DNA from: Gilliamella apis
Lineage (GTDB): Bacteria > Pseudomonadota > Gammaproteobacteria > Enterobacterales > Orbaceae
Direction of reading: 5' to 3'
Length of the DNA stretch: 64,000 nucleotides
Assembly: GCF_002142155.1 (NCBI RefSeq)
Contig: NZ_NASD01000003.1
Span: forward strand, 1 to 64,000
The stretch's first letter is position 1. Each line of letters begins with the position of its first letter. The position numbers and the translations under genes are program-made. Shown one piece after another: positions 15,848-51,092 of the stretch. The notes under the pieces were generated by a model that saw nothing but the letters and a program-made list of their open reading frames with translations, was not told the origin of the DNA and did not search any database.

Positions 15848-18694
15848 TTATTTATCTTTTTGTCGTTGCAATAATGGTTTTAAATATTGACCAGTATAGG
15901 ATTTTTTCAATTTAGCAACATCTTCAGGGGTACCTTCAGCAATGATCTCACCACCACCACTACCACCTTCAGGACCTAGATCGACAATCCAATCAGCAGT
16001 TTTAACAACATCTAAATTGTGTTCAATCACTACGATAGTATTGCCCTTATCTCTTAAAGAGTGTAATTGAGCAAGTAATTGTTTTACATCGGCAAAATGT
16101 AAACCGGTAGTTGGCTCATCAAGTATGTAAAGAGTACTACCAGTATCTCGCTTAGATAACTCTTTTGCAAGTTTCACCCGTTGTGCTTCACCACCAGATA
16201 AAGTAGTTGCTGACTGACCAATGGTAATATAAGCAAGACCAACATCAATTAAAGTCTGTAATTTACGTGAAATCATAGGTACTGCATCAAAGAACTCTCG
16301 CCCTTCTTCAACCGTCATGTTTAGGATTTCATTAATCGATTTACCTTTATACTTAATCTCTAATGTTTCACGATTATATCTTGCACCATGGCACTGATCA
16401 CAAGGTACATAGATATCAGGTAAAAAGTGCATTTCGACTTTTATTAAACCATCACCTTGACAAGCTTCACAGCGTCCACCTTTGACATTAAAACTAAACC
16501 TTCCTGGATTATAACCTCGTGCTCTAGCTTCTGGCACACCAGCATAAAGTTCACGAATCGAAGTAAAAAAGCCTGTGTATGTAGCAGGGTTTGAACGTGG
16601 TGTTCGACCTATAGGGCTCTGATCAATTGCGATAACTTTATCAAAATAATTTAATCCTTTGATTGCTTCATAAGGTGCAATGTCACTTTTTTCCGCACCA
16701 TTAAGTTCATTTTGGGCTAAAGGATACAAAGTGTCATTAATCAAAGTTGATTTACCTGAACCAGATACACCAGTAATACAGGTAAATAAGCCAACTGGGA
16801 TATTCAAGGTAACATTTTTAAGATTATTTCCCGTCGCACCAATGAGTGATAACATTTTTTTCTTATCGATTTTGGTTCGCTCAGCAGGAATTTCAATTTT
16901 TTCCTCGCCAGAAAGGTATTTACCCGTTAATGAATTTTTACATCCCATTATCTGTTTTGGCGTACCTTGTGCAACAACTTCACCACCATGAACACCTGCG
17001 CCAGGACCGATATCAATAACATAATCAGCAGCCATAATCGCTTCTTCATCATGTTCAACGACAATAACGGTATTACCTAAATCGCGTAAGTGGGTCAATG
17101 TATCAATTAAGCGACTATTATCACGTTGATGTAAACCAATCGACGGTTCATCAAGAACATACATCACACCAACTAATCCGGCGCCAATTTGGCTAGCCAG
17201 TCGGATACGTTGCGCTTCACCACCAGATAAGGTTTCAGCAGAACGTGATAAGGTTAAATAATTTAAACCGACATTAATCAAAAATTGCAGCCGATCATTA
17301 ATTTCTTTTAAAATCTTTTCAGCTATTTGTGCCCGTTGTCCGGTCAATGATAACTTATCAAAAAAGTCCTTCGCTTGTTGGGTACTTAAATTACTAATAG
17401 TTGGTAAATTAGTATCATTAATAAAAACATGTCGGGCTGTTTTACATAACCTTGAGCCTTCACAACATGGGCAAGGTCGATGGCTAATATATTTAGCTAA
17501 CTCTTCACGAATAGTTTGCGAATCGGTTTCTTTATAGCGACGAGAAAGATTATTGATAATACCTTCAAAAGCATGTTTACGCTTCACAACGTCACCACGA
17601 TCATTAGTGTAAACAAATTGTATTTCGTCACCACCTGAACCATTTAGTAAAATATCTTTCACTTTTTCAGGTAATTTTTGATATGGTTGATCGATATCAA
17701 ATTTATAGTGTTCAGCTAACGATTTTAACATCTGAAAGTAATAGAAATTACGTCTATCCCAACCTTTAATCGCGCCTGCAGCTAAAGAAACTTCTGGCAT
17801 TTGTACAACACGTTTTGGATCAAAATATTGTTGTACCCCTAAACCGTCACATTCAGGACAAGCACCAGCAGGATTGTTAAATGAAAACAATCTTGGTTCA
17901 AGTTCAGAAATACTATAGCCACATATTGGACAAGCAAAATTGGCAGAGAACAGATGTTCTTCAGCTTTGGGATCATCCAAATTTGCGACTTTAACAATAC
18001 CATTGGTAATTGAAAGTACTGTTTCAATTGATTCAGCTAAGCGTAGTTTCAAATCATCACGAATACGAAAACGATCCACCACCACTTCAATAGTATGTTT
18101 TTTCTGTAGTTCAAGTGTCGGAGGATCGGAAAGATCATAAACATCACCATCAACCCGAACGCGAATATAACCGCTAGCAGCAAGTTGTTCGAATAATTTC
18201 ACAAACTCACCCTTACGCTCAGTAACCACCGGCGCAAGTAACATATAACGATTTTCTGAAGGTAATGCCATAATACTGTCAACCATTTGCGAAACCGTTT
18301 GCGCAGCTAATGGTAGATTATGATTTGGGCAACGTGGTTCACCAATTCGAGCAAATAACAGACGTAAATAGTCATAAATTTCGGTGATTGTGCCGACTGT
18401 TGATCGCGGATTATGTGATGTTGATTTTTGCTCAATTGAAATAGCTGGCGATAAGCCTTCAATATGATCAACATCAGGTTTTTCCATTAGTGATAAAAAT
18501 TGACGAGCATAAGCTGATAACGACTCAACATATCGTCTTTGACCTTCAGCATATAAGGTATCAAACGCTAGTGATGATTTACCAGAACCAGACAGACCTG
18601 TAATTACCACCAATTTATCTCTAGGGATAACTACATTAATATTTTTTAAGTTATGTGTTCTTGCACCACGAATATCGATATCTTTAATTGACAT
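15848..18694 (-). CDS. uvrA: Excinuclease ABC subunit A
   Basis: At 948 residues this is full-length UvrA. Two ABC ATPase modules are visible (Walker [10 protein letters not shown] near residue 32 and GVSGSGKST near 645), each with an LSGGEAQR signature, plus CPICG...CPEC and CEACQGDG...CDQCHG zinc fingers. It recognises bulky DNA lesions with UvrB. A LexA-like box 47 bp upstream of the ATG indicates SOS control. Confidence 0.97.
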
Positions 18695-29398: not shown

Positions 29399-30124
29399 TT
29401 ATCTAGAGTCTAGGGCTATTTTTTTGCAGGTTTCATACATTTCATTAAGATCATCATCCCATAAGTCATTATCGATTAAAACTTGTTTGATTATTTTTGT
29501 ATCTTTGTTATTAAGCAAAGTAAAAGCGAGAAAAGCAGAAAAAGCTTTATCTGGTTGGCACAGTTCCAGTGTTGTGATCATATTATTTCTAACATAATCA
29601 ATATTACTTTTATTATTAACTAAATCGTCTATATATTTATTTATACGATTTGAAGCCTCGAATCTTGATTGCAACAATCGTTCATAGTCATTTAAAGCCA
29701 ATTTTTTAATAGTATTGTCACCTTTTGAACCTACATTTCCTTTTGGATACAAACGACAAGCTTGAATAGATAAATGTAATTTAGGATCATCCTCATAAGG
29801 ATTTATAATAGGTGTTATAACAACATCCAAACTCCCTTTTCTGAGATTACACCTTTTACATGAAGGTAACAAATTATCCCAATTTACGACTTCATCAGGA
29901 TATCGTTTTTTACATTTAAAATGCTCAACTTCAACGTATGAATCTTCAATCTGTAATTGACATTCACAATAAGCGCATTTAGAGTTGCTGCTTTCTAATA
30001 ATCGCTCCTTTATTTTTTCGTGATTCCATACAGTATCAGAATTAGACTTATACCTTTCTATTAGTTCTTGAACTTTATCATCGCTTAAGTAATCGGGTTT
30101 TTTCCCTTTTTCTAACTTAATCAT
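29399..30124 (-). CDS. ptuB: PtuB-like HNH endonuclease of a Septu defence system
   Basis: The 241-residue protein has an HNH nuclease core: CAYCECQL, then VEVEHFKCKKRYP with the catalytic His, and WDNLLPSCKRCN closing the zinc site, followed by KGS. This is the TIGR02646/PtuB family. It starts 3 bp after the PtuA stop. In Septu, PtuA and PtuB form a complex that degrades DNA on phage infection. All HNH residues appear intact. Confidence 0.87.
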   Translation of the reverse strand: MIKLEKGKKPDYLSDDKVQELIERYKSNSDTVWNHEKIKERLLESSNSKCAYCECQLQIEDSYVEVEHFKCKKRYPDEVVNWDNLLPSCKRCNLRKGSLDVVITPIINPYEDDPKLHLSIQACRLYPKGNVGSKGDNTIKKLALNDYERLLQSRFEASNRINKYIDDLVNNKSNIDYVRNNMITTLELCQPDKAFSAFLAFTLLNNKDTKIIKQVLIDNDLWDDDLNEMYETCKKIALDSR

Positions 30125-30127
30125 GGA

Positions 30128-31285
30128 TTAACCCTTAAGCCCATCCAATTGCATTTTAAAAAGTGCTCTTAAAGGGTATGTAGGATGAAGTAATTTATCC
30201 AATTCGTTATGAGCTTCAGTAGCAGCTTTTATATCATTATCATCTAGCGCCCTACTAAATTTTGTGTAAACTTCCCTATATTTTTCTGTTCGAACATCTC
30301 TCATACCCATTACATCAGTAAGAATTTCCTCAACTGTCCATCCTTTAAAGCCATGTGGGGCGATATCTAAGGTTCTTTTTTCTAAATGACCATTTTCTCC
30401 AGATAAAGCTATAACTTCGTTCGCCTCGGCGGTTTGAATAACGTGAGGGCTATGCGTACTGATGATAAATTGGGCTTTCGGAAATGTTTTTGTAAGAACG
30501 CTGCAAACTTTACCTTGCCATTCAGGATGAAGGTGTAACTCTATCTCATCAATTAGAATAATTCCATTAAAGTCTGATGCTAAAACATTGTTGTCTTGGA
30601 ATCGATATTCAATTTCTTTAATTATTCCCAATAAAATAAATAAAATTGACCTAAATCCAGAAGATAAAAGTTCAAAATATATTTCTCCTGTAGGTGTTTT
30701 TACAATTATCTCATTTTGAGTGGTAGTTTTACAAAAGGTAACCTTATTATCAAGTAACGAAAAACAGCTTATTGCTAATTTAATGTTTTCTTGTTGAACA
30801 TCAGTTAAATTATTAACATGCGCGCTATGCAAATACCTAGAAACAAACCATTGTTTTATATCATCGTTATCTAAACCTTCAGCGTTTTCCGTTGTTCTAT
30901 TGATAACGTCTGGGTCTGAATTAATACTACTTTCTCGCCTATATTTAAAAACGCGATTAACTTTTAAATATAGTAAATTGAAATTTGCATTTTCATCATT
31001 AACACATTCCCATGTTTTATAGGTAAGATTTGTATATTTTTTCTTTATTGGTCGCGAAATTACTTTTCCATCTACTGAGCTTTTTATGCATCCTTGTTCA
31101 AAACCTGATTTAACACTAATAGATATCGGTTCATAACTTGAAAACAATGATGCAATTGAATCCAAAATATTTGTTTTACCAATTCCGTTTTCACCGCAAA
31201 TAATATTTAAGTTGGGGTCAAAACTATCTAACGACAAGCTAGATATACCGCCAACATTTTCTATTTTTAGTGATTCAATTTTCAT
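30128..31285 (-). CDS. ptuA: PtuA-like ATPase of a Septu defence system
   Basis: The 385-residue SMC/RecF-like ATPase begins MKIESLKIENVGGISSLSL and has Walker A GENGIGKTN, a signature-like LLSSGFRSILFI, Walker B GIILIDEIELHLHPEWQ and the H-loop FIISTHSPHVI. Start 31285 has AGGA 7 bases upstream; the longer frame from 31381 has no ribosome site. Its partner is an HNH protein, making this a two-gene Septu operon with no reverse transcriptase, so it is not a retron. Confidence 0.86.
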   Translation of the reverse strand: MKIESLKIENVGGISSLSLDSFDPNLNIICGENGIGKTNILDSIASLFSSYEPISISVKSGFEQGCIKSSVDGKVISRPIKKKYTNLTYKTWECVNDENANFNLLYLKVNRVFKYRRESSINSDPDVINRTTENAEGLDNDDIKQWFVSRYLHSAHVNNLTDVQQENIKLAISCFSLLDNKVTFCKTTTQNEIIVKTPTGEIYFELLSSGFRSILFILLGIIKEIEYRFQDNNVLASDFNGIILIDEIELHLHPEWQGKVCSVLTKTFPKAQFIISTHSPHVIQTAEANEVIALSGENGHLEKRTLDIAPHGFKGWTVEEILTDVMGMRDVRTEKYREVYTKFSRALDDNDIKAATEAHNELDKLLHPTYPLRALFKMQLDGLKG

Positions 31286-31639
31286 TGCATTATCCTGTTT
31301 ATTTTTATCGTCAGAATAATAGCATAATATTTCGATAAGTTGATCATTAAATGATCTCTTAAAGGTGATGGATTTTTTCATATTATTAATAAACCAAGAA
31401 GAAATTAGAGGGTTATAGAATCTCAGTCTTCATAATGAAGACGCAGGTTTTCATTACTTCGTCACGCATGATACGGTTATACTGAGATCCCCACTACAAA
31501 CCAATATTCTTACAAATGGGGCGCATTGAAACATAAAGCTGTCCATTATGCTCAATGGCTTGGATTGTTGTATTGCAAAATGGGACTTATAATTTTTTTA
31601 AATTATTCATTAATCACTCCTTTTACCTTTTTAATAAAA

Positions 31640-31710
31640 GCTCACATGAAAACAATCCACTGAAGGTAGGCAGCTTCATGCTTTTGCTCCGTCGAGCTAT
31701 TCATGTGAGC
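31640..31710. ncRNA. Candidate structured RNA element
   Basis: GCTCACATGAA (31640-31650) is exactly inverted at 31700-31710. The 49-bp interior contains a nested TGAAG/CTTCA hairpin (31671-31688). It is followed 40 bp later by a strong terminator. No family match is known to me; it could also be an inverted-repeat scar. Confidence 0.3.
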
Positions 31711-31750
31711 GTTAAATCTGTTATTGATTTGCGGAATAATGAGCAATAAA

Positions 31751-31770
31751 AAACCGCCAGAAGGCGGTTT
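31751..31770 (+). terminator. Terminator between structured element and CRISPR array
   Basis: AAACCGCC-AGAA-GGCGGTTT. It could end transcripts from either side, including the leftward crRNA precursor. Confidence 0.75.
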
Positions 31771-31789
31771 GTGATAGTTTTAATTTTGA

Positions 31790-32117
31790 ATTTTTGGCTA
31801 CCTACACGGTAGTGAACGCGAACTGCTCGGCGTATCTTCAAATAAAATTTTTCTAAACTACCTATGCGGCAGTGAACTTGATTTTTGCACGTAAACACGT
31901 GAACCGTTATTTCTAAACTACCTACACGGTAGTGAACAATTGCGAACGTGACAGGTTTGTGTAAATCAATTTCTAAACTACCTACACGGTAGTGAACGGA
32001 AAACTATGATGTAATAAAAAATATTAATATTTCTAAACTACCTACACGGTAGTGAACCATGGATGTTGGCATTCGCTCTTCGCAATGATTTTCTAAACTA
32101 CCTACACGGTAGTGAAC
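31790..32117 (-). CRISPR. Type I-F mini CRISPR array, 6 repeats and 5 spacers, no cas genes
   Basis: Six 28-bp repeats start at 31790, 31850, 31910, 31970, 32030 and 32090, with 32-bp spacers, a 60-bp period. On the minus strand the repeat begins GTTCACTACCGTGTAGGTAG and ends TTTAGAAA, the type I-F form. Repeats 3-6 are identical. Repeat 2 has internal changes, and repeat 1 (31790-31817) is altered at its far end, which marks it as the trailer. The leader is therefore to the right. No cas gene is in the 64 kb. Confidence 0.95.
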
Positions 32118-32255
32118 TAGAACATTATACACAATAAACTTTGTTCAGAAAAAGAATAATAACCAATTTGTAGCTAAAAACCCTTTTTTTACACCTGTTT
32201 ATAATCATTTGATTTTAAATGAATTATAAGAATCAGCAAAAAAAGGGTTAACTAA
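32118..32255 (-). promoter_or_regulatory. CRISPR leader
   Basis: AT-rich region on the leader side, between the array and the antirepressor gene. It contains AACCCTTTTTTT (about 32178-32189) and its inverse AAAAAAAGGGTT (about 32239-32250). Transcription of the array would start here and run leftward. Confidence 0.6.
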
Positions 32256-33077
32256 TTAATGATGTCTAATTACAGGTAAAACCCTATTCCATTTGTCTAT
32301 TATATTTTTTGCTTTAATATGCGCTGTTTCTCGCTCAATAATTAATTTTGCACTATGTAAATTTCGTTTGTACTCGATTGACATAGAGTGAAATGCACTG
32401 ACAAAACTAGAATCAATTGCCCTAAGGGCTGGCTCGATAAGCTCAATTTGAGAACGCATCCTATCTGCTACTTTATAAAGCCAAGCTAAATCGTACCAAT
32501 CTTCATCAGACAACCCGTTTCTCATGCTTACACCACCCAACCACTTAATAGCCTCGTCAAACTTGCTAGCTGGCAAATCTTGGTAACGCGGTACTTTGAA
32601 CTGCAAATAGAATTTAGAATAAATAGCTTGATGATGTTCACCTGTGCGGTATGAACGCTCATTAACAGCCTGTTTAATTGCCTGCTGTTGTTCAACTGAA
32701 ATAGTGTTAGGGTGTTGTTGAGCTACTTTCGGCATGAAGTGGTTATAAAGTACATCGAAACATTCTAATTGATATTGTTTTAAGATAGGTTTTATTTCTG
32801 GATTAACCCTGCTTAATTCTATACCTGCAAGCCAGCCATTGAGATAACCAAGAGGTAAACATAAAACTTCTCTATTTTTACCGTCTTTTGCAACTACCTT
32901 TATCATAAAGGCAGTTGAATTAAGTATTTCATTTCTTTTAATTCTTTGTCTTTGAGCTTCCCAATCCAAACCTATGTTCTCGCATATTGGTTTGATAGCA
33001 ACATAAGGCTTATTATTATAATTGAGAATTGATATTTGTTGATTGTGAAATTGAACTAACTGAATTTGGTTTGACAT
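32256..33077 (-). CDS. P22-type phage antirepressor
   Basis: The 273-residue protein has the P22_AR_N domain (VQFHNQQISILNYNNKPYVAIKPICENIGLDWEAQRQRI and LPLGYLNGWLAGIE) and an antirepressor C-terminal domain with DLPASKFDEAIKWLGG. Antirepressors inactivate prophage repressors. A c4-like RNA with complementarity to its leader lies 135 bp upstream, so expression is probably blocked in the lysogen. AGAGGATATAGT precedes the ATG. Confidence 0.88.
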   Translation of the reverse strand: MSNQIQLVQFHNQQISILNYNNKPYVAIKPICENIGLDWEAQRQRIKRNEILNSTAFMIKVVAKDGKNREVLCLPLGYLNGWLAGIELSRVNPEIKPILKQYQLECFDVLYNHFMPKVAQQHPNTISVEQQQAIKQAVNERSYRTGEHHQAIYSKFYLQFKVPRYQDLPASKFDEAIKWLGGVSMRNGLSDEDWYDLAWLYKVADRMRSQIELIEPALRAIDSSFVSAFHSMSIEYKRNLHSAKLIIERETAHIKAKNIIDKWNRVLPVIRHH

Positions 33078-36148: not shown

Positions 36149-38723
36149 TCAACGACGATTTAACAATCCGCCGGGTCGTTGTTCTTTTTGTATCTGTGCT
36201 CGTATCGCTTGCTCGATGTTTTTAGCTAATTGCTGTCCGTCCTGCTCTGACATTCCGCCGCTATCACCTACATTTACAGGCATATTTATAGTAAGGCTAA
36301 CACTGGAGCCGCCTTTTCCTGATGTGATTTGGCGGTTGCTTAAAACTCGCCCATTTTCACCCGGAATTAAGTATTGTCGTCCGCCTTGCATCAATATCTC
36401 TGGTTTACCACCCTCACCAACTCGATACATTTTACTGCCGTCAACTGGACCACCGTTTTTACGTGCACCTGCTATACCCAACGCTTTCATTGAGCCAATA
36501 GCTGTTGCATATGCCTCTGCGCCCATCGCTGCTGCTGCGCCCTGCGTGGCAATAGATGCGTTCATTGCCGCCGGTTCATATGCTAAAGCTAATGCTTCAG
36601 CTTCAAGTACTTGAGCTGCTGTCGTTTTAGCTACAATTGCGTTCTTGACGTATTGCATGCCCATTTGAACCAGCGAGCCTATTGCCTCATTCAAAATCAC
36701 ATTAGCAAAGTTCTGCATTGCTTGCGTTGCTGTCATGGTGCCTGATGCTAAACCTGATATTGTGCTTGTCGCACTGCTTGCTAAGCCTTCCAGTGATGAC
36801 GCCAAAAACTCGTTAGCATCACTTTGATTTCGCCAAATTTCCCATTGAGCATTGATTCTATTCTGCTCGAATTGACGATTAGCTTCCTCTCTAAGTTCAA
36901 TAGCTCTTTGCTCAGTAAGCCATTTTTGATTTTCAAATTCTTGGATTAATGCTAACTTTCGTGCGTTTTCATTTTGAAGCGCTTGCACAGGGTCAACTTG
37001 AGCTACTGCATCATCGACTTTAGATACTGCCGCATCAGATTTTATTTTTGCTAAATTGATTTGATGTTGTTCTTCGAGCTGTTCGAGTTTTGAATAATAT
37101 TCAGCTTGTTTTAGCTCGCCTAGTTGATGAAGTTTATCGAGTGATTCTTTAGATTGTTTGAAAGAATCATTTTCAGCGTCAATTGGGCTTTTTAGAGAAC
37201 CTAAGGCTTTATATGCTTGCGATGCTTCAATTAGCTTTTTCAGCTCTTCAGTTTGTTCTGCCGTAACTTTGCTACCCATTTTTTGAGTGATTGATAGCAA
37301 TTCAGCTTCAACAGTAAGTCCTTTTGCCTCAAGTTTCGCAACCTCAAGCTTGTCTTTCAGTTCTTTTACTTCTTCCGCATAAGTTCTTGTTGTGCCTCGT
37401 CCACTTTTTTTACTAGCATTTAGCTTTTCGTTTTCGTCATAAATTTTACCAAGAGTATCAAATAATGGTTGTAGCACTTTTCGAACTTCTTCAGATACTT
37501 CTGACCATTTTTTTGTTTTATCGATTAACCCCAGAATTGTTGTTTTATACTGTTCGCCAACATCGCCTAGCTCATTTAACGCATTTTCATATATGTACGC
37601 TGCTTTTTTCGCTCCTTTGGTTTTCATTTGAACTATTTCGAGTTGCGTAGAAAGCGCTTTAACTTTATCGTCAACTTTGTTTTTGCCAAGTTTTTCTAAC
37701 ACTTTAGCAAAGCCGTCAACGTCAGTAGCCGCTTGCTCTGATGATGATGATAATTCTTCATTAACTCCGTTAAGTGATTGTATTTGCCTCTCTAGCTCAT
37801 TTGCACCTTGTTTCATGTCCGCCAAGTTTCCGCGTGCGATACTTAATTTTTCGTTTAATTCATCTAGAGTATAGAGTTCAAACCCGTTTTCACCGTAATG
37901 CTCTAAATTTGTCAGAATCGCAGTAATCCGACCCTCTTCTTCTTTTATTTCTTTAACTTGCTCCGATAATTTAATGTTTAATTTTGTAAGCGCAGCCTCT
38001 CTTTGCTCTTTATTCATCTTTTTGAATTCTTCGGTTAAATCTTTTATGTAATCTTTAAGATTAACCGCAGCTTCTCTCGCTTCATTTGCTTTGCTCGCCC
38101 AAGTCATTAATGCGCCAGCCGCTAAAATTAATATACCTGCTGGGCCGCCTAGCATTGACATTGTAGCTTGCAATCCTTTAGTGGCAAAAGACGTAGCTTT
38201 CACTGCTACACTAAGTCTTGCTTGCGCGGCCGTATGCTCATTTGTAGTAGTGACAAGCTGTTTCTCAACTACGGCAAGCTGTTTATTTAATGCAGTTTGT
38301 GCTTTTAAATTATTACATTGCGCTTGTGCCATGATAATATTTTGTCGCTGAATTTGCAGTGCTTTGACGTTTTGGCTGGTTCTTTCAACTTCCGCTTGTA
38401 ATAAAACTTTCTCAGCTTGAGCTTGACGCATATCAGCAAGGTTTTTTCTACACTTTGTTTGGTAGCGCTTGCTAATGAAGTGATATATTTCCCGGCATAA
38501 ATCGCTGCCAGTGCGCCAACTCCTGTCATTAGTATATCGACATGTTGAGACATCAAAATCAGCGAATCAACTAAAACTTTGGTTGCGCCAGTTGAGTTAT
38601 TTAGCTCGCCGAAATATTTTTTTAGATTATTGGTTACACGATTGATCCCGTCCTGTACAGTATTTCGCATATTATCAGCAAGTTCGGCGGTTTCTTCTTG
38701 TGCTGCAATCATTGCTTCGGTAA
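36149..38723 (-). pseudogene. Tail tape measure protein, 5'-truncated and frameshifted
   Basis: The main frame (36149-38431) is rich in coiled coil, has the membrane-like GGPAGILILAAGALMTWAS stretch and ends QRPGGLLNRR, as tape measure proteins do. Upstream, 38432-38723 continues the protein in another frame (TEAMIAAQEETAELADNM...KYITSLASATKQSVEK). The frames join if the A6 tract at about 38441-38446 had one more A. The N-terminal part is lost at 38723, where an unrelated gene fragment begins. Confidence 0.85.
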
Positions 38724-44029: not shown

Positions 44030-44674
44030 ATGAACAATCTCGGTCAAAGAATTAGAGCCAGACGTGAAGAATTGGGATTAACTCAAGAACAAGTTGCGGA
44101 ACAAGTAGGAATTAAACAACAATCCTACCAAGCTATAGAAAGCGGTGGTGTAAAAAAACCACGCCATTTATACGAAATTTCAGTGACTTTAAAATGTGAT
44201 ATGGCATGGTTATTAAGTGGAAAAGAAAAGGACGTAATAAACGTAGAAAAAATAGAAATTCACGCCCATCAAGTCCCATTAATAAGCTACGTGCAAGCAG
44301 GAGTATGGACAGAGTCGTGTGAACTTAGAGATTCAACTGGATTTGAATATATTATGACATCATTAGAATTATCAAATAAAGCATTTGCACTAAAAATAAA
44401 AGGCGATTCAATGGAGCCAGAATTTAAAGAAGGTGATGTTGTTATTATCGATCCTGCGATAAAACCATTTCCAGGTGAATTTGTGGTAGCTGTAAATGGA
44501 GATGAAGAGGCAACTTTTAAAAAGTACCGTGAATTAGGATATGATGAGCATGAAAGAATGCAGTTTGAACTCATACCACTCAATCCAGATTACACAACCA
44601 TGAGCACATTAAAGCAACAGATTAGAATAATTGGTACCATGGTTGAGCACAGAATTTTTAGAAGAAAAAGGTAA
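44030..44674 (+). CDS. CI-like prophage repressor (S24 peptidase family)
   Basis: The 214-residue protein has an N-terminal Xre helix-turn-helix (LTQEQVAEQVGIKQQSYQAIES) and a LexA-like C-terminus. The self-cleavage site is VQAGVW (Ala90-Gly91), catalytic Ser127 in KGDSMEPEF, and Lys164 in ATFKKYR. RecA-stimulated cleavage is therefore expected. AAAGGAG precedes the ATG. It is intact, so immunity is probably maintained. Confidence 0.92.
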   Translation: MNNLGQRIRARREELGLTQEQVAEQVGIKQQSYQAIESGGVKKPRHLYEISVTLKCDMAWLLSGKEKDVINVEKIEIHAHQVPLISYVQAGVWTESCELRDSTGFEYIMTSLELSNKAFALKIKGDSMEPEFKEGDVVIIDPAIKPFPGEFVVAVNGDEEATFKKYRELGYDEHERMQFELIPLNPDYTTMSTLKQQIRIIGTMVEHRIFRRKR

Positions 44675-46334: not shown

Positions 46335-47762
46335 ATGAAGTTTAATGTTAACATAAAAAACTTTGGCAAAATTCAAAACGCAAACATAGTACTAAGTAAT
46401 TTTACTGTTATAGCAGGGAAAAATGGATGCGGAAAAAGTTTTGTAACTAGGGCTTTTTATAGTTTCTTTAATACAATAAATAAAGATCATTTGACAAAAG
46501 ATTTATTAAAATATATTGGAGAAACTGACTATTTCTTAAATGACATATTATCAAATAAAACACTCAATAAAAAAGAAATTTTATCCCTAACATTAATGAA
46601 ACAATCAATTGATGATTGTGTTAATTTTATACAAAGCAATATTAATGCTCATTATTTAACAGAACAATTCTTGCTAAAAAAACAAATAGAAGAAAAATTA
46701 GATAACATAATAAATAATTTCAATGATTTTAAACAAGAGCTTGGTAATAAGAAAAAAAAGAGTTCTTTCGTTAGAGAATTAGATGTATTAGAGCATATCA
46801 TTTTCAATTTAACTAATTTAGCTAAAAATCCCGAACAAAATATAGCAAAATCAATTGAACAAGATCTTAGATTTGAATTGCAAGAAAATTTTCAACTTTC
46901 TAAATTATCCCAATTAGTTAATTATCATAACAATAAAGAATTTTCTTTTGATTTTGAAAAACTAGGCACAATAAGTGTGCAATTTAATAAAGAAAAAGCA
47001 CAAGACCAAATTGCATTTCAACTGAATCGTTCTAGTATAGATGAGTTTCAACAACTCAACAATATTGTATATATAGAATCCCCTATATTTTGGAAAATAC
47101 GGCCTGCTTTAAATTTAATTAAAAGAAACCAATTGATTAATAGGTCTATTCGTTCTAAATTTTTTCAAAAAGAATTACTAGGAATTCCCAAATACTTCTT
47201 TGATTTATCAAATTTATTAGAGGTTAATTATACATTATCACCTATAGTTTCTAAATTTGAAAAAATATCTTCTAACCTAAAAAGCGCAATTGGTGGAAAA
47301 TTTGACATATCTGAAAGTGGGGATATCTTTTTTAAAGAAGAAAATTGCAAAAACACAGCTTTTTCACTTTATCTAACTTCTACAGGAACGACAAACTTGG
47401 GAATGTTATCTTTATTGTTAGATAAAGGTATTATTTCTGATGGTAGCTATTTATTTATTGATGAACCTGAAATTAATCTGCACCCGAATTGGCAAAAAAT
47501 AATGGTTGAATGTTTATTAGAATTATCAAAATTAAACGTTCACGTTGTAATAGCTACTCATAGTATTGATATGATTAAGTGTATCGAATTGTTAATTAAT
47601 AAAAATCAAGATTTAGTAAACAATGAACATTTTGCAATTAATCAACTATCATCCGAAGGAAGTTCGATCAATGCTGAAGAAAGTATATCCAACAAAATTA
47701 CAGCAATAAAAGATGATTTAGGTGAATCTTTTTTACAGATGTTTTTAGAAGAAAATGGCTAA
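46335..47762 (+). CDS. OLD-like/SMC-type ATPase of a two-gene cargo system
   Basis: The 475-residue ATPase has Walker A GKNGCGKS (28-35), a long coiled-coil-rich insert (about 75-200), Walker B YLFIDEPEINLHPNWQ and H-loop HVVIATHSIDMI. No TOPRIM nuclease domain follows, unlike OLD. Its last 8 bp overlap the next gene, so the two act together. The layout, lysogen-expressed locus and nuclease-like partner suggest phage defence. It differs from the Septu ATPase in this prophage and I cannot name the system. Confidence 0.75.
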   Translation: MKFNVNIKNFGKIQNANIVLSNFTVIAGKNGCGKSFVTRAFYSFFNTINKDHLTKDLLKYIGETDYFLNDILSNKTLNKKEILSLTLMKQSIDDCVNFIQSNINAHYLTEQFLLKKQIEEKLDNIINNFNDFKQELGNKKKKSSFVRELDVLEHIIFNLTNLAKNPEQNIAKSIEQDLRFELQENFQLSKLSQLVNYHNNKEFSFDFEKLGTISVQFNKEKAQDQIAFQLNRSSIDEFQQLNNIVYIESPIFWKIRPALNLIKRNQLINRSIRSKFFQKELLGIPKYFFDLSNLLEVNYTLSPIVSKFEKISSNLKSAIGGKFDISESGDIFFKEENCKNTAFSLYLTSTGTTNLGMLSLLLDKGIISDGSYLFIDEPEINLHPNWQKIMVECLLELSKLNVHVVIATHSIDMIKCIELLINKNQDLVNNEHFAINQLSSEGSSINAEESISNKITAIKDDLGESFLQMFLEENG

Positions 47763-48339
47763 AATTGAATTAAATAATTTTTTTAAAAAAATAGATCCAG
47801 AATTTAGAGATATAACAGAGGAATTGCTAGAACGATTACCTAATGGTTATTTGCTTGATAATGATAATGGGTTAAAAAAACATTGTAATTGTGATAATTT
47901 AAAGTCTGTTGATTTTCTATTAGAAAAAGATGAAAATCTATATTTTACCGAATTCAGTGATTTAAATTCTGAAGATAGAAATATTAGAGAGAAAATAAAA
48001 CAACAGATTAATTGTTGTGAACAAGCAAAATCTTGTCCAGTTAAAGGAGACTATCCCAAGCTACTTCAGAATATTAAAGTAAATGATTTTGCTTTAAAAT
48101 ACAAAGATACTTTATTATTATTACTCTCAATTAAAAACGATCTGGAACCTAAAACCATATTTCATGAAAATACAGATAAATGGCATTTTTTAATAGTTTA
48201 TAATAAAAAACCTAATCTTGATCTTGTAAGATACTTAGATTTATTAAAATCGAATATAAAATCTTCATTACCTACAAGATTATTGAATAAAGATAACTTT
48301 AAAATTCAAAATTTAGATAACTTCATCAATAATTTTTAG
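47755..48339 (+). CDS. Nuclease-like partner of the ATPase (194 aa)
   Basis: The segment KSVDFLLEKDENLYFTEFSDL resembles the D...E-x-K core of PD-(D/E)XK nucleases, with Ser where Lys is usual. A Cys-rich patch (KKHCNCDN, NCCEQAKSCP) is also present. There is no signal or membrane segment. It overlaps the ATPase gene by 8 bp. The nuclease reading is a visual guess; the family is otherwise unrecognised. Confidence 0.55.
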   Translation: MAKIELNNFFKKIDPEFRDITEELLERLPNGYLLDNDNGLKKHCNCDNLKSVDFLLEKDENLYFTEFSDLNSEDRNIREKIKQQINCCEQAKSCPVKGDYPKLLQNIKVNDFALKYKDTLLLLLSIKNDLEPKTIFHENTDKWHFLIVYNKKPNLDLVRYLDLLKSNIKSSLPTRLLNKDNFKIQNLDNFINNF

Positions 48340-49898: not shown

Positions 49899-51092
49899 CT
49901 AACTCGTATATTCAATAGTCCACTTATCTATCATATCAGCCCAATCTTGCAATAATTTTCGCCGTTGCTCTGAGTATTCAGCTTTATTGTAAACAGCTCT
50001 AACACCTCGTTGCTCATGAGCTAAAGCCTTTTCTATCCAGTCCGAATTGTAACCGGCCTCGTGTAAGTGAGTTGATGCAGTTCTTCTCATATCATGCACA
50101 GTAAAATCACCGAGATTAAAACCGTTTTTTTGGGCTAATTGAATAGTGTGTGTGCATGCTCTGTTTATTGATGATTTAGATATATTCCCGTACTTTGATT
50201 GCCCAAAGCTTGGTAAAACAAATGGCGATTCGCTTGATAATATCTTTAGTTGCATAAATAAATCAATAGCTTGCTTAGATAAATAAACAACATGAGGCCT
50301 ACCTGCCCCCTGCCGGCTCGCTTTCATGCGTTCGGCAGGGATTGTCCATTCCGCATTTTTAAAATCTATTTCATCCCACGTCGCATCAACTATTCCGCTT
50401 TTTCTTGTCATTGTTAGCATAATTAGCTTTAATGCGATCTTTAATTGAAGAGACGTTTTGCTAATTTTCAATGTGTTAAAAAATATACCCACTTCTTGCT
50501 TTGTTAACGCTCTGTCTCTTGGCGCGAAAGTCGCTATTGAAGCTCCTTTTACATAATCAGCCGGGTTTTCATAATTAGCCCCTCTTGCTTTCGCATACGT
50601 AAAAACCATCCCCACAATATCACGTGTTCTTACTGCCGTTACAGGCGCGCGTTCTTTGATTTTCTCACAATATTGCCTCAACATTGTTGGTGTTATTTAT
50701 GACAATAACAATTTACCAAATTTTGGAGCAACATCTCTTGCGATTATCCCTTGCACTACATCTCTGGTACTAATTGCATAATCAACATCATTAAACCATT
50801 TGTCCAACCAATACCCAAAAACATCATTATTTCTTGTTTGCTTTTCCTTAGCCGGTGAAAGTCCATTTGCAATTAACTTCTTTGCTTCAAGTAGTTTATC
50901 TCTTGCTTCAGATAGTGATAATTCACCATGCTTACCAAAAGTAATTGTTTCTCGTCGCCCGTTAATCCGGTAATCATAACGAAAAGATAATGTTCCCGAT
51001 TTAGATACAGCAACATACAACCCATCGCGGTCTGGAAGTTTATATTGTTTATCTTTTGGTTTTATTGATTTAAGCTTTGTTTCTGTTAACAT
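49899..51092 (-). pseudogene. int: P4-type tyrosine integrase, interrupted by one stop codon
   Basis: The N-terminal part (MLTETKLKSIKPKDKQYKLPDRDGLYVAVS...) is a DUF4102 domain. The C-terminal part keeps the catalytic motifs HDMRRTASTHLHEAG (HxxR) and a Tyr in AHEQRGVRAVYNKAEY. In the same frame, LLLS-TAA-ITPTMLRQYCEK shows an in-frame stop at 50697-50699 (codon 132) where related integrases carry Lys. Start 51092 follows GGAG. Loss would lock the prophage in guaA. Confidence 0.88.

Follow-up and report, generated by a model that had tools for sequence, protein, structure and literature searches.

A cas-less type I-F CRISPR array in a Gilliamella prophage, probably using host Cas proteins against other phages

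A CRISPR array that lies inside a prophage, with no cas genes beside it, raises two linked questions: whether it belongs to the phage or to the host, and against what its spacers are directed. We addressed them for an array at positions 31790..32117 of a 64,000-nt stretch of Gilliamella apis DNA, the whole of which is called the window here. Sequence comparisons lead us to consider it likely that this locus is a cas-less type I-F array of a Gilliamella temperate-phage lineage, which would use the Cas proteins of its host against other phages, close relatives among them. Its leader and seat are common to prophages and not to the other arrays of the host; otherwise its build is that of an ordinary I-F array.

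Array, prophage and host cas locus

The array comprises six 28-nt repeats and five 32-nt spacers with an exact 60-nt period; its crRNA strand is the minus strand, with the leader at the right. On that strand the repeat reads GTTCACTACCGTGTAGGTAGTTTAGAAA, and five of the six copies reached the gathering score of Rfam CRISPR-DR4, the terminal copy (31790-31817) falling below it. The four leader-side repeats are identical, the fifth carries three differences and the last five, all within its final 8 nt (3′ end). Identical repeats on the leader side and altered ones at the far end indicate the usual polarity, with growth at the right-hand end. All six copies retain the 5-pair stem. A repeat with a hairpin, 32-nt spacers with CC at the target and cas genes in the genome were all found, as expected of a type I-F array.

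Conservation of the hairpin was assessed on 29 repeat types, mostly internal, from arrays of leader classes A and B (see below) and similar arrays, together with one chromosomal type from genome G027; terminal repeats were left out. Stem cells were paired in 97.2% of cases compared with 85.6% in shuffles, 26 cells were changed on both sides compared with 8.8, and the covariation score was 0.518 compared with 0.266, with 0/500 shuffles as high for each of these measures. Structures slid along the repeat were 11-50% paired. Two of the five covariation measures stood at shuffle level, namely pairs changed on both sides (3 versus 2.7) and further pair types (5 versus 5.9). On balance, these comparisons suggest that the hairpin needed for Cas6f recognition is conserved across repeat types.

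The array stands directly behind a P22-type antirepressor gene (32256..33077, minus strand), whose product has P22_AR_N and P22_AR_C domains. Its downstream neighbours are the Septu genes PtuA (30128-31381, minus strand) and PtuB (29399-30124, minus strand), so that its seat is flanked by Septu (29399-31381) and the antirepressor. Lambda-like genes lie near it: a CI-type repressor (44030-44674), O split over two ORFs, P, NinB, NinG and a Q-like gene. Further prophage genes encode a tape measure, a minor tail protein, a tail fibre assembly protein and an integrase (49899-50684), the last near the GMP synthase gene. A prophage location with no cas genes alongside is what a virus-borne array should present. 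The tape-measure gene is truncated at its start, and only ∼1.3 kb separates it from the Q-like gene. Since this gap, where lambda order puts the head genes, is too small for them, and since no prophage ORF scanned matched terminase, portal or capsid, the prophage is probably defective in this strain. Given such a defect, the current beneficiary of the array may be the host.

Elsewhere in the window, an AAA_15 ATPase gene (46335-47762; phrog_14430) in the prophage region and its small neighbour (47755-48339) form a possible additional defence pair. A 948-aa protein (15848-18694) matches phrog_21263, and its last third also matches the PADLOC model mad3.

Host Cas proteins were sought in the whole 2.52-Mb genome (54 contigs; G000), in which the window lies on contig C23. 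Contig C2 carries one complete I-F cas locus (Cas1f, Cas2-3, Cas8f, Cas5f, Cas7f, Cas6f). The genome has a single Csy2 match, on C2, and Cas1 matches on C2 and C27; neither protein is matched on C23. The C27 gene (14013-14633) is a second Cas1, perhaps from a second CRISPR-Cas system. Eleven further I-F arrays, whose repeat equals or closely resembles that of the window array, are spread over eight contigs (C2, C8, C12, C18, C19, C23, C29, C34); each is preceded by a copy of a common leader of some 200 nt, as judged by eye. Chromosomal arrays with exactly the window repeat occur on C12, C18 and C34.

These results bear on several statements of a preliminary description made from the window sequence. 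It had placed six I-F repeats and five 32-nt spacers at 31790..32117, inside a prophage between Septu and an antirepressor, and both the coordinates and the setting proved right. Its label cas-less applies to the window contig but not to the genome, given the complete locus on C2. Its suggestion that the host be searched for I-F cas genes and comparable repeats yielded both.

Csy2 was present in 23/44 genomes of the family searched. In six of them (G014, G016, G017, G018, G023, G024) the repeat of Csy2-adjacent arrays differs from the class A/B repeat, so the fit to Cas6f is not given by repeat identity there; for G023, length served to pair the contig with its IMG/VR counterpart. The Csy2-adjacent array of G005 has a repeat identical to one from the G016 prophage, which indicates that the boundary between repeat lineages is not strict. 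Arrays of class A or B are present in G022 as well, a genome that gave no Csy2 match.

A solitary I-F repeat lies on C2 between cas2-3 and csy1 (84736-84763; L010 13002-13029). It is followed by 16 nt (TATGACATTCTTTTGA) and then, by eye, a hairpin and a T-run; a second copy of TATGACATTCTTTTGA precedes csy1, 99 nt beyond the first. From its sequence this element looks like a CreR-type autorepressor guide, a kind of guide named for types I-B, I-E and V-A only in the portions of the review PMC13131331 drawn on here.

Leader classes and their seats

The leader of the window array (32118..32255, minus strand; class A) is 138 nt long and spans the whole gap from the antirepressor stop codon to the first repeat. 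It is distinct from the leader that the 11 other arrays of the genome have in common, sharing only a core with it. At 32202..32214 (minus strand), 84 nt ahead of repeat 1, the sequence AATCAAATGATTA matches without mismatch WATCAANNNNTTR, which we take to be the IHF consensus. Such an IHF-like site stands 82-84 nt before repeat 1 in 11/11 of the other leaders of this genome, by simple pattern match. It is absent from the truncated leaders of two one-spacer class A arrays (G017 2189024 and G036). Leaders of a second class, B, have no IHF-like site at ∼84 nt and mostly show a reverse site with one mismatch at about 94 nt. The site in the window is enclosed by an inverted repeat (32179..32249, minus strand) with 27-nt arms that are 78% complementary. 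IHF and leader inverted repeats have been described as taking part in I-F integration (PMC12259127, preprint), and in Acinetobacter a 60-bp leader gave no detectable uptake, while a high rate was obtained with 100 bp or more (PMC9602844). With its IHF-like site, 138-nt length and enclosing inverted repeat, the window leader looks adaptation-competent.

Signals for transcription were sought as well. A TATAAT hexamer (32124..32129, minus strand) adjoins repeat 1; it was seen by eye and is missing from the promoter-scan output. The sigma-70 scan gave no hexamer pair next to the first repeat, and its site count was below that of shuffled sequence. Past the last repeat lies an intrinsic-terminator-like hairpin (31751..31770, minus strand; 1 found versus 0.4 expected). 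In 7/14 class B arrays the last repeat passes directly into a T-run, and such terminal repeats could, judging from their sequence, themselves stop transcription.

With the class A leader as query, some match at E 0.001 was obtained in 26 of 44 genomes. Near-full-length copies (80-92% identity) occur at five places, in G017 (2), G016 (2) and G022 (1); remaining matches are shorter or at most 76% identical, very short ones excepted. G016, G022 and G036 belong to the same genus as the window genome. At L049 (G017) the antirepressor ahead of the leader is 89% identical over 272 residues, and at L051 (G016) 86% identical over the last 149 residues; both regions contain tape-measure genes, and the array stands among tail genes. 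At the second G017 copy, L050, the antirepressor is reduced to the end of its gene. For the G022 copy, L052, similarity to the window extends over 205 nt, of which 56 nt belong to the end of the antirepressor gene. Six proteins around L050 and L052 were compared with phage structural families and 0/6 matched, so these places are not called prophages. The refuting condition named in the preliminary description, a location outside the prophage in relatives, thus applies only in part: not at L051 and L049, and possibly at L050 and L052, where the genes other than the antirepressor end are not clearly of phage origin. This slightly lessens the weight of a phage-lineage reading, the bolder version given below included, and adds slightly to that of a host array. 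Spacers are not the same between the arrays of the window genome, G016, G017 and G022.

The G022 array at L052 (10315-10462) has broken repeat stems, which may point to decay or to use as a decoy. Beside the second G017 array, a protein (L050 10966-11670) weakly matches phrog_8545 (superinfection exclusion).

The same seat was found in IMG/VR. Antirepressor loci numbered 26, and in 8 of the 24 examined (L095 and L096 being left out) repeats lay at most 900 nt behind the gene, the record of the window prophage itself among them. Over all 57 called arrays, eight had a class A leader, one of these (IMGVR_UViG_2684622924_000002) duplicating G016, and 14 had a class B leader, all on IMG/VR contigs. 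In genomes, the class B leader was found at 85-92% identity at eight places in six genomes. The other class A and B arrays hold 1 to 14 spacers each. On the viral contig IMGVR_UViG_2870902796_000001, 10 spacers stand in one array and 14 in another (L084 8601-9228, 10980-11847), both close to the antirepressor of that contig; one of the two arrays mixes several repeat types, as if assembled from different arrays. Outside this set, the stretch 31382-32255 of the window resembles arrays on seven Acinetobacter plasmids, including NZ_CP156788, NZ_CP156769 and NZ_CP156773, at 66-76% and at up to 11 places per plasmid.

Targets of the spacers

Three of the five window spacers are directed at viruses other than the carrier. 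Spacer S3 (31938..31969, minus strand) matched 32/32 in two IMG/VR contigs (L150, L151) next to CCC; its target is a short ORF of unassigned kind, and these contigs are not counted among relatives of the window prophage. A degenerate-pattern search of IMG/VR for S3 returned the record of its own prophage and two others, and none of the other 43 genomes searched contained it even with 3 mismatches allowed. Spacer S4 (31878..31909, minus strand) matched 32/32 in three places, its target being a phage tail tube gene (PF08813); at 26/32 or better it matched 25 places, with CC at all 25. Spacer S5 (31818..31849, minus strand), the oldest by position, matched KilA-N genes (PF04383) of other prophages at 30/32 and 29/32 next to ACC. 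Homologues of the S4 tail tube and S5 KilA-N target proteins were not found in the window. The newest spacer by position, S1 (32058..32089, minus strand), had no target match, and its degenerate pattern returned from IMG/VR only the record of its own prophage; S2 (31998..32029, minus strand) matched neither its own genome nor the target set. In imperfect targets, mismatch positions showed no clear seed pattern. Comparison of the array with a public phage collection gave, in the best 40 of 265 records, chance-level matches only (best E 0.3).

Self-targeting or chromosomal regulation was considered and rejected: with as many as 3 mismatches allowed, 0/5 spacers had a match in their genome beyond the array itself, and the best matches elsewhere in the window covered 20-22 of 32 positions. 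The alternative raised in the preliminary description, that chromosomal genes are the targets, is thus not supported. Its search for targets with a CC motif succeeded for S3, S4 and S5. Its main proposal, host I-F Cas proteins acting in trans against rival phages, is supported by these matches in other phage contigs and by the cas set on C2. Both results also run counter to its first refuting condition, a lack of I-F cas genes in every carrier strain together with a lack of spacer matches. The exact matches of S3 and S4, the four identical repeats and the leader with its IHF-like site also agree with its view that the array is not ancient debris.

The window prophage is in turn a target. A protospacer in its tape-measure gene (37824..37855, plus strand) matches 32/32, next to GCC, a spacer on IMGVR_UViG_2870902796_000001, a contig with two weaker matches (27 and 26 of 32) to the window prophage as well. 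Reciprocal targeting of this contig by S5 was considered, and the match (26/32) was too weak to count.

The pattern extends to the called arrays as a whole. Targets were sought in 93 pieces from 80 contigs (1.32 Mb), picked mostly by relatedness to the window prophage, with genome stretches added, so that sibling targets are over-represented. Arrays were called automatically, and a few false two-repeat 'arrays' and end pseudo-spacers were kept (for example C2:84736 and C8:55423 of the window genome), which makes the denominators slightly too high. At 26/32 or better, 38/212 distinct called spacers had a target, compared with 0/212 reversed controls, none of which exceeded 25. Immediately ahead of the best target stood CC in 34/38 cases, CA in 2 and CT in 2, while CC occurred at 8/212 reversed spacers and at 5/149 real spacers matching at 23/32 or less. 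I-F interference has been reported to require a PAM-CC almost exclusively (PMC9602844). For 35/38 matching spacers the best match was on a viral contig.

Matching spacers made up 26/68 in class A and B arrays (22 with CC), 4/52 in the host's own chromosomal arrays and 8/92 in all others; the difference between class A and B and own chromosomal arrays has p = 1e-4. At 28/32 with CC, 64 links lead from class A or B carriers to contigs, 22 of them to contigs that bear such arrays (G016 and IMGVR_UViG_2684622924_000002 enter this count twice). No reciprocal carrier pairs occurred among the 64 links, and one called spacer matched its own contig (26/32). Nineteen contigs were matched at 26/32 or better by both the window array and the own chromosomal arrays, which indicates that host and prophage array have enemies in common.

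A short ORF lies beside the arrays of the G017 and G016 prophages, and IMGVR_UViG_2857868033_000001 carries a spacer that matches it (32/32 at L049 11690; 31/32 at L051 7483).

Explanations and known systems

If the locus is the array of a phage lineage that we believe it to be, it would be transcribed from its own leader, and host Cas6f would cut the transcript at the repeat hairpins. The host I-F effector, loaded with these crRNAs, would then act on incoming phages, close relatives included, and prophage and host would be kept clear of competitors. New spacers would be gained at the leader end, probably by host Cas1 and Cas2-3. A bolder version holds that this is an adaptive memory owned by the phage, in which both leader classes, together with the repeats and the terminator, follow the evolution of the phage rather than that of the host, and sibling-phage spacers are gained through any host I-F machinery met; we put this forward tentatively, as a possibility that we would not expect to hold in full.

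Several facts would also fit a host array caught by chance in the remains of a prophage, as another of the dispersed arrays of this genome, to the benefit of the host only. The genome has 11 others with an identical or nearly identical repeat, its own chromosomal arrays match 19 of the contigs matched by the window array, the prophage looks defective, and two other places of the class A leader (L050, L052) are outside clear prophages. We nevertheless think this unlikely, because the leader is unlike that of the 11 arrays, the G016 and G017 copies stand among tail genes and are preceded by the same antirepressor, and class A and B spacers match more often than chromosomal ones.

The presence of five spacers, of which three have phage targets next to CC, and of an intact stem in six of six repeats makes it very improbable that the locus is an RNA anti-CRISPR decoy of the Racr kind, the repeats of which would sequester host Cas6f and Cas7f and shield the phage from host CRISPR. 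Racrs are solitary repeats, although a type I-F Racr does exist in a prophage (PMC10651486), and the broken stems of the G022 class A array, like the truncated leaders and single spacers of the arrays G017 2189024 and G036, would suit a decoy. That the array is debris, functionless and retained by chance, is scarcely credible: the last two repeats are altered and the prophage is degraded, but four leader-side repeats are identical, the leader keeps an IHF-like site, and S3 and S4 match existing phage contigs at 32/32. An array of a phage lineage acting through host Cas proteins is the reading that we retain.

Among the listed titles and abstract openings of open-access papers, none dealt with arrays in Gilliamella prophages. 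In bee-phage studies CRISPR has been used for host assignment (PMC10259446, PMC12586679, PMC13331135, PMC12607879, PMC9040601), bee-gut phages being assigned to hosts through their spacers (PMC12586679); prophage-borne arrays would add to such assignments links between phages, not links of phage to host. Phage-against-phage CRISPR has been modelled in theory (PMC7099407) and, according to a review (PMC8616872), tested in archaeal viruses. The Gilliamella prophage array could offer a culturable bacterial model of it, and its two leader classes make it possible to examine if phages adjust leader and repeat to a host machinery that varies between strains.

Among known systems, the mini-CRISPR arrays of the Sulfolobales viruses SPV1 and SPV2 are virus-borne, cas-less and provided with a leader, are thought to use host Cas proteins in trans, occupy the same seat with differing spacers in relatives, and have spacers directed against close relatives (PMC6858448). 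They belong to archaeal viruses, hold 1-2 spacers per array and have leaders similar to those of the host (PMC6858448), whereas the window array lies in a bacterial temperate prophage, is of type I-F, has five spacers (up to 14 in a related contig) and has a leader unlike that of the host's 11 arrays. Its five spacers also place it outside the narrow mini-CRISPR definition of one or two spacers given in that account (PMC6858448). The leaderless mini-arrays of phages and prophages (Faure 2019, as cited in PMC6858448, PMC7099407 and PMC8616872) are likewise cas-less and directed against related phages; they mostly have one spacer, while the window array has a recurring leader. Racrs and solitary repeat units share with it I-F-like repeats in prophages and host Cas6f as partner, but consist of a single repeat without spacer (PMC10651486), compared with six repeats and five spacers, with targets, here. 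In Clostridioides difficile, type I-B arrays occur several per genome, some in prophages, with spacers mostly against phages, and exclusion of related competing phages has been proposed (PMC6079278). Subtype and host differ; in two strains the highest crRNA expression came from prophage arrays, and phage-particular leader classes do not figure in the portions of that account drawn on here (PMC6079278). Phage-borne cas-less arrays are thus already known from Sulfolobales viruses and C. difficile prophages, and the Gilliamella locus is a type I-F form with leaders of its own.
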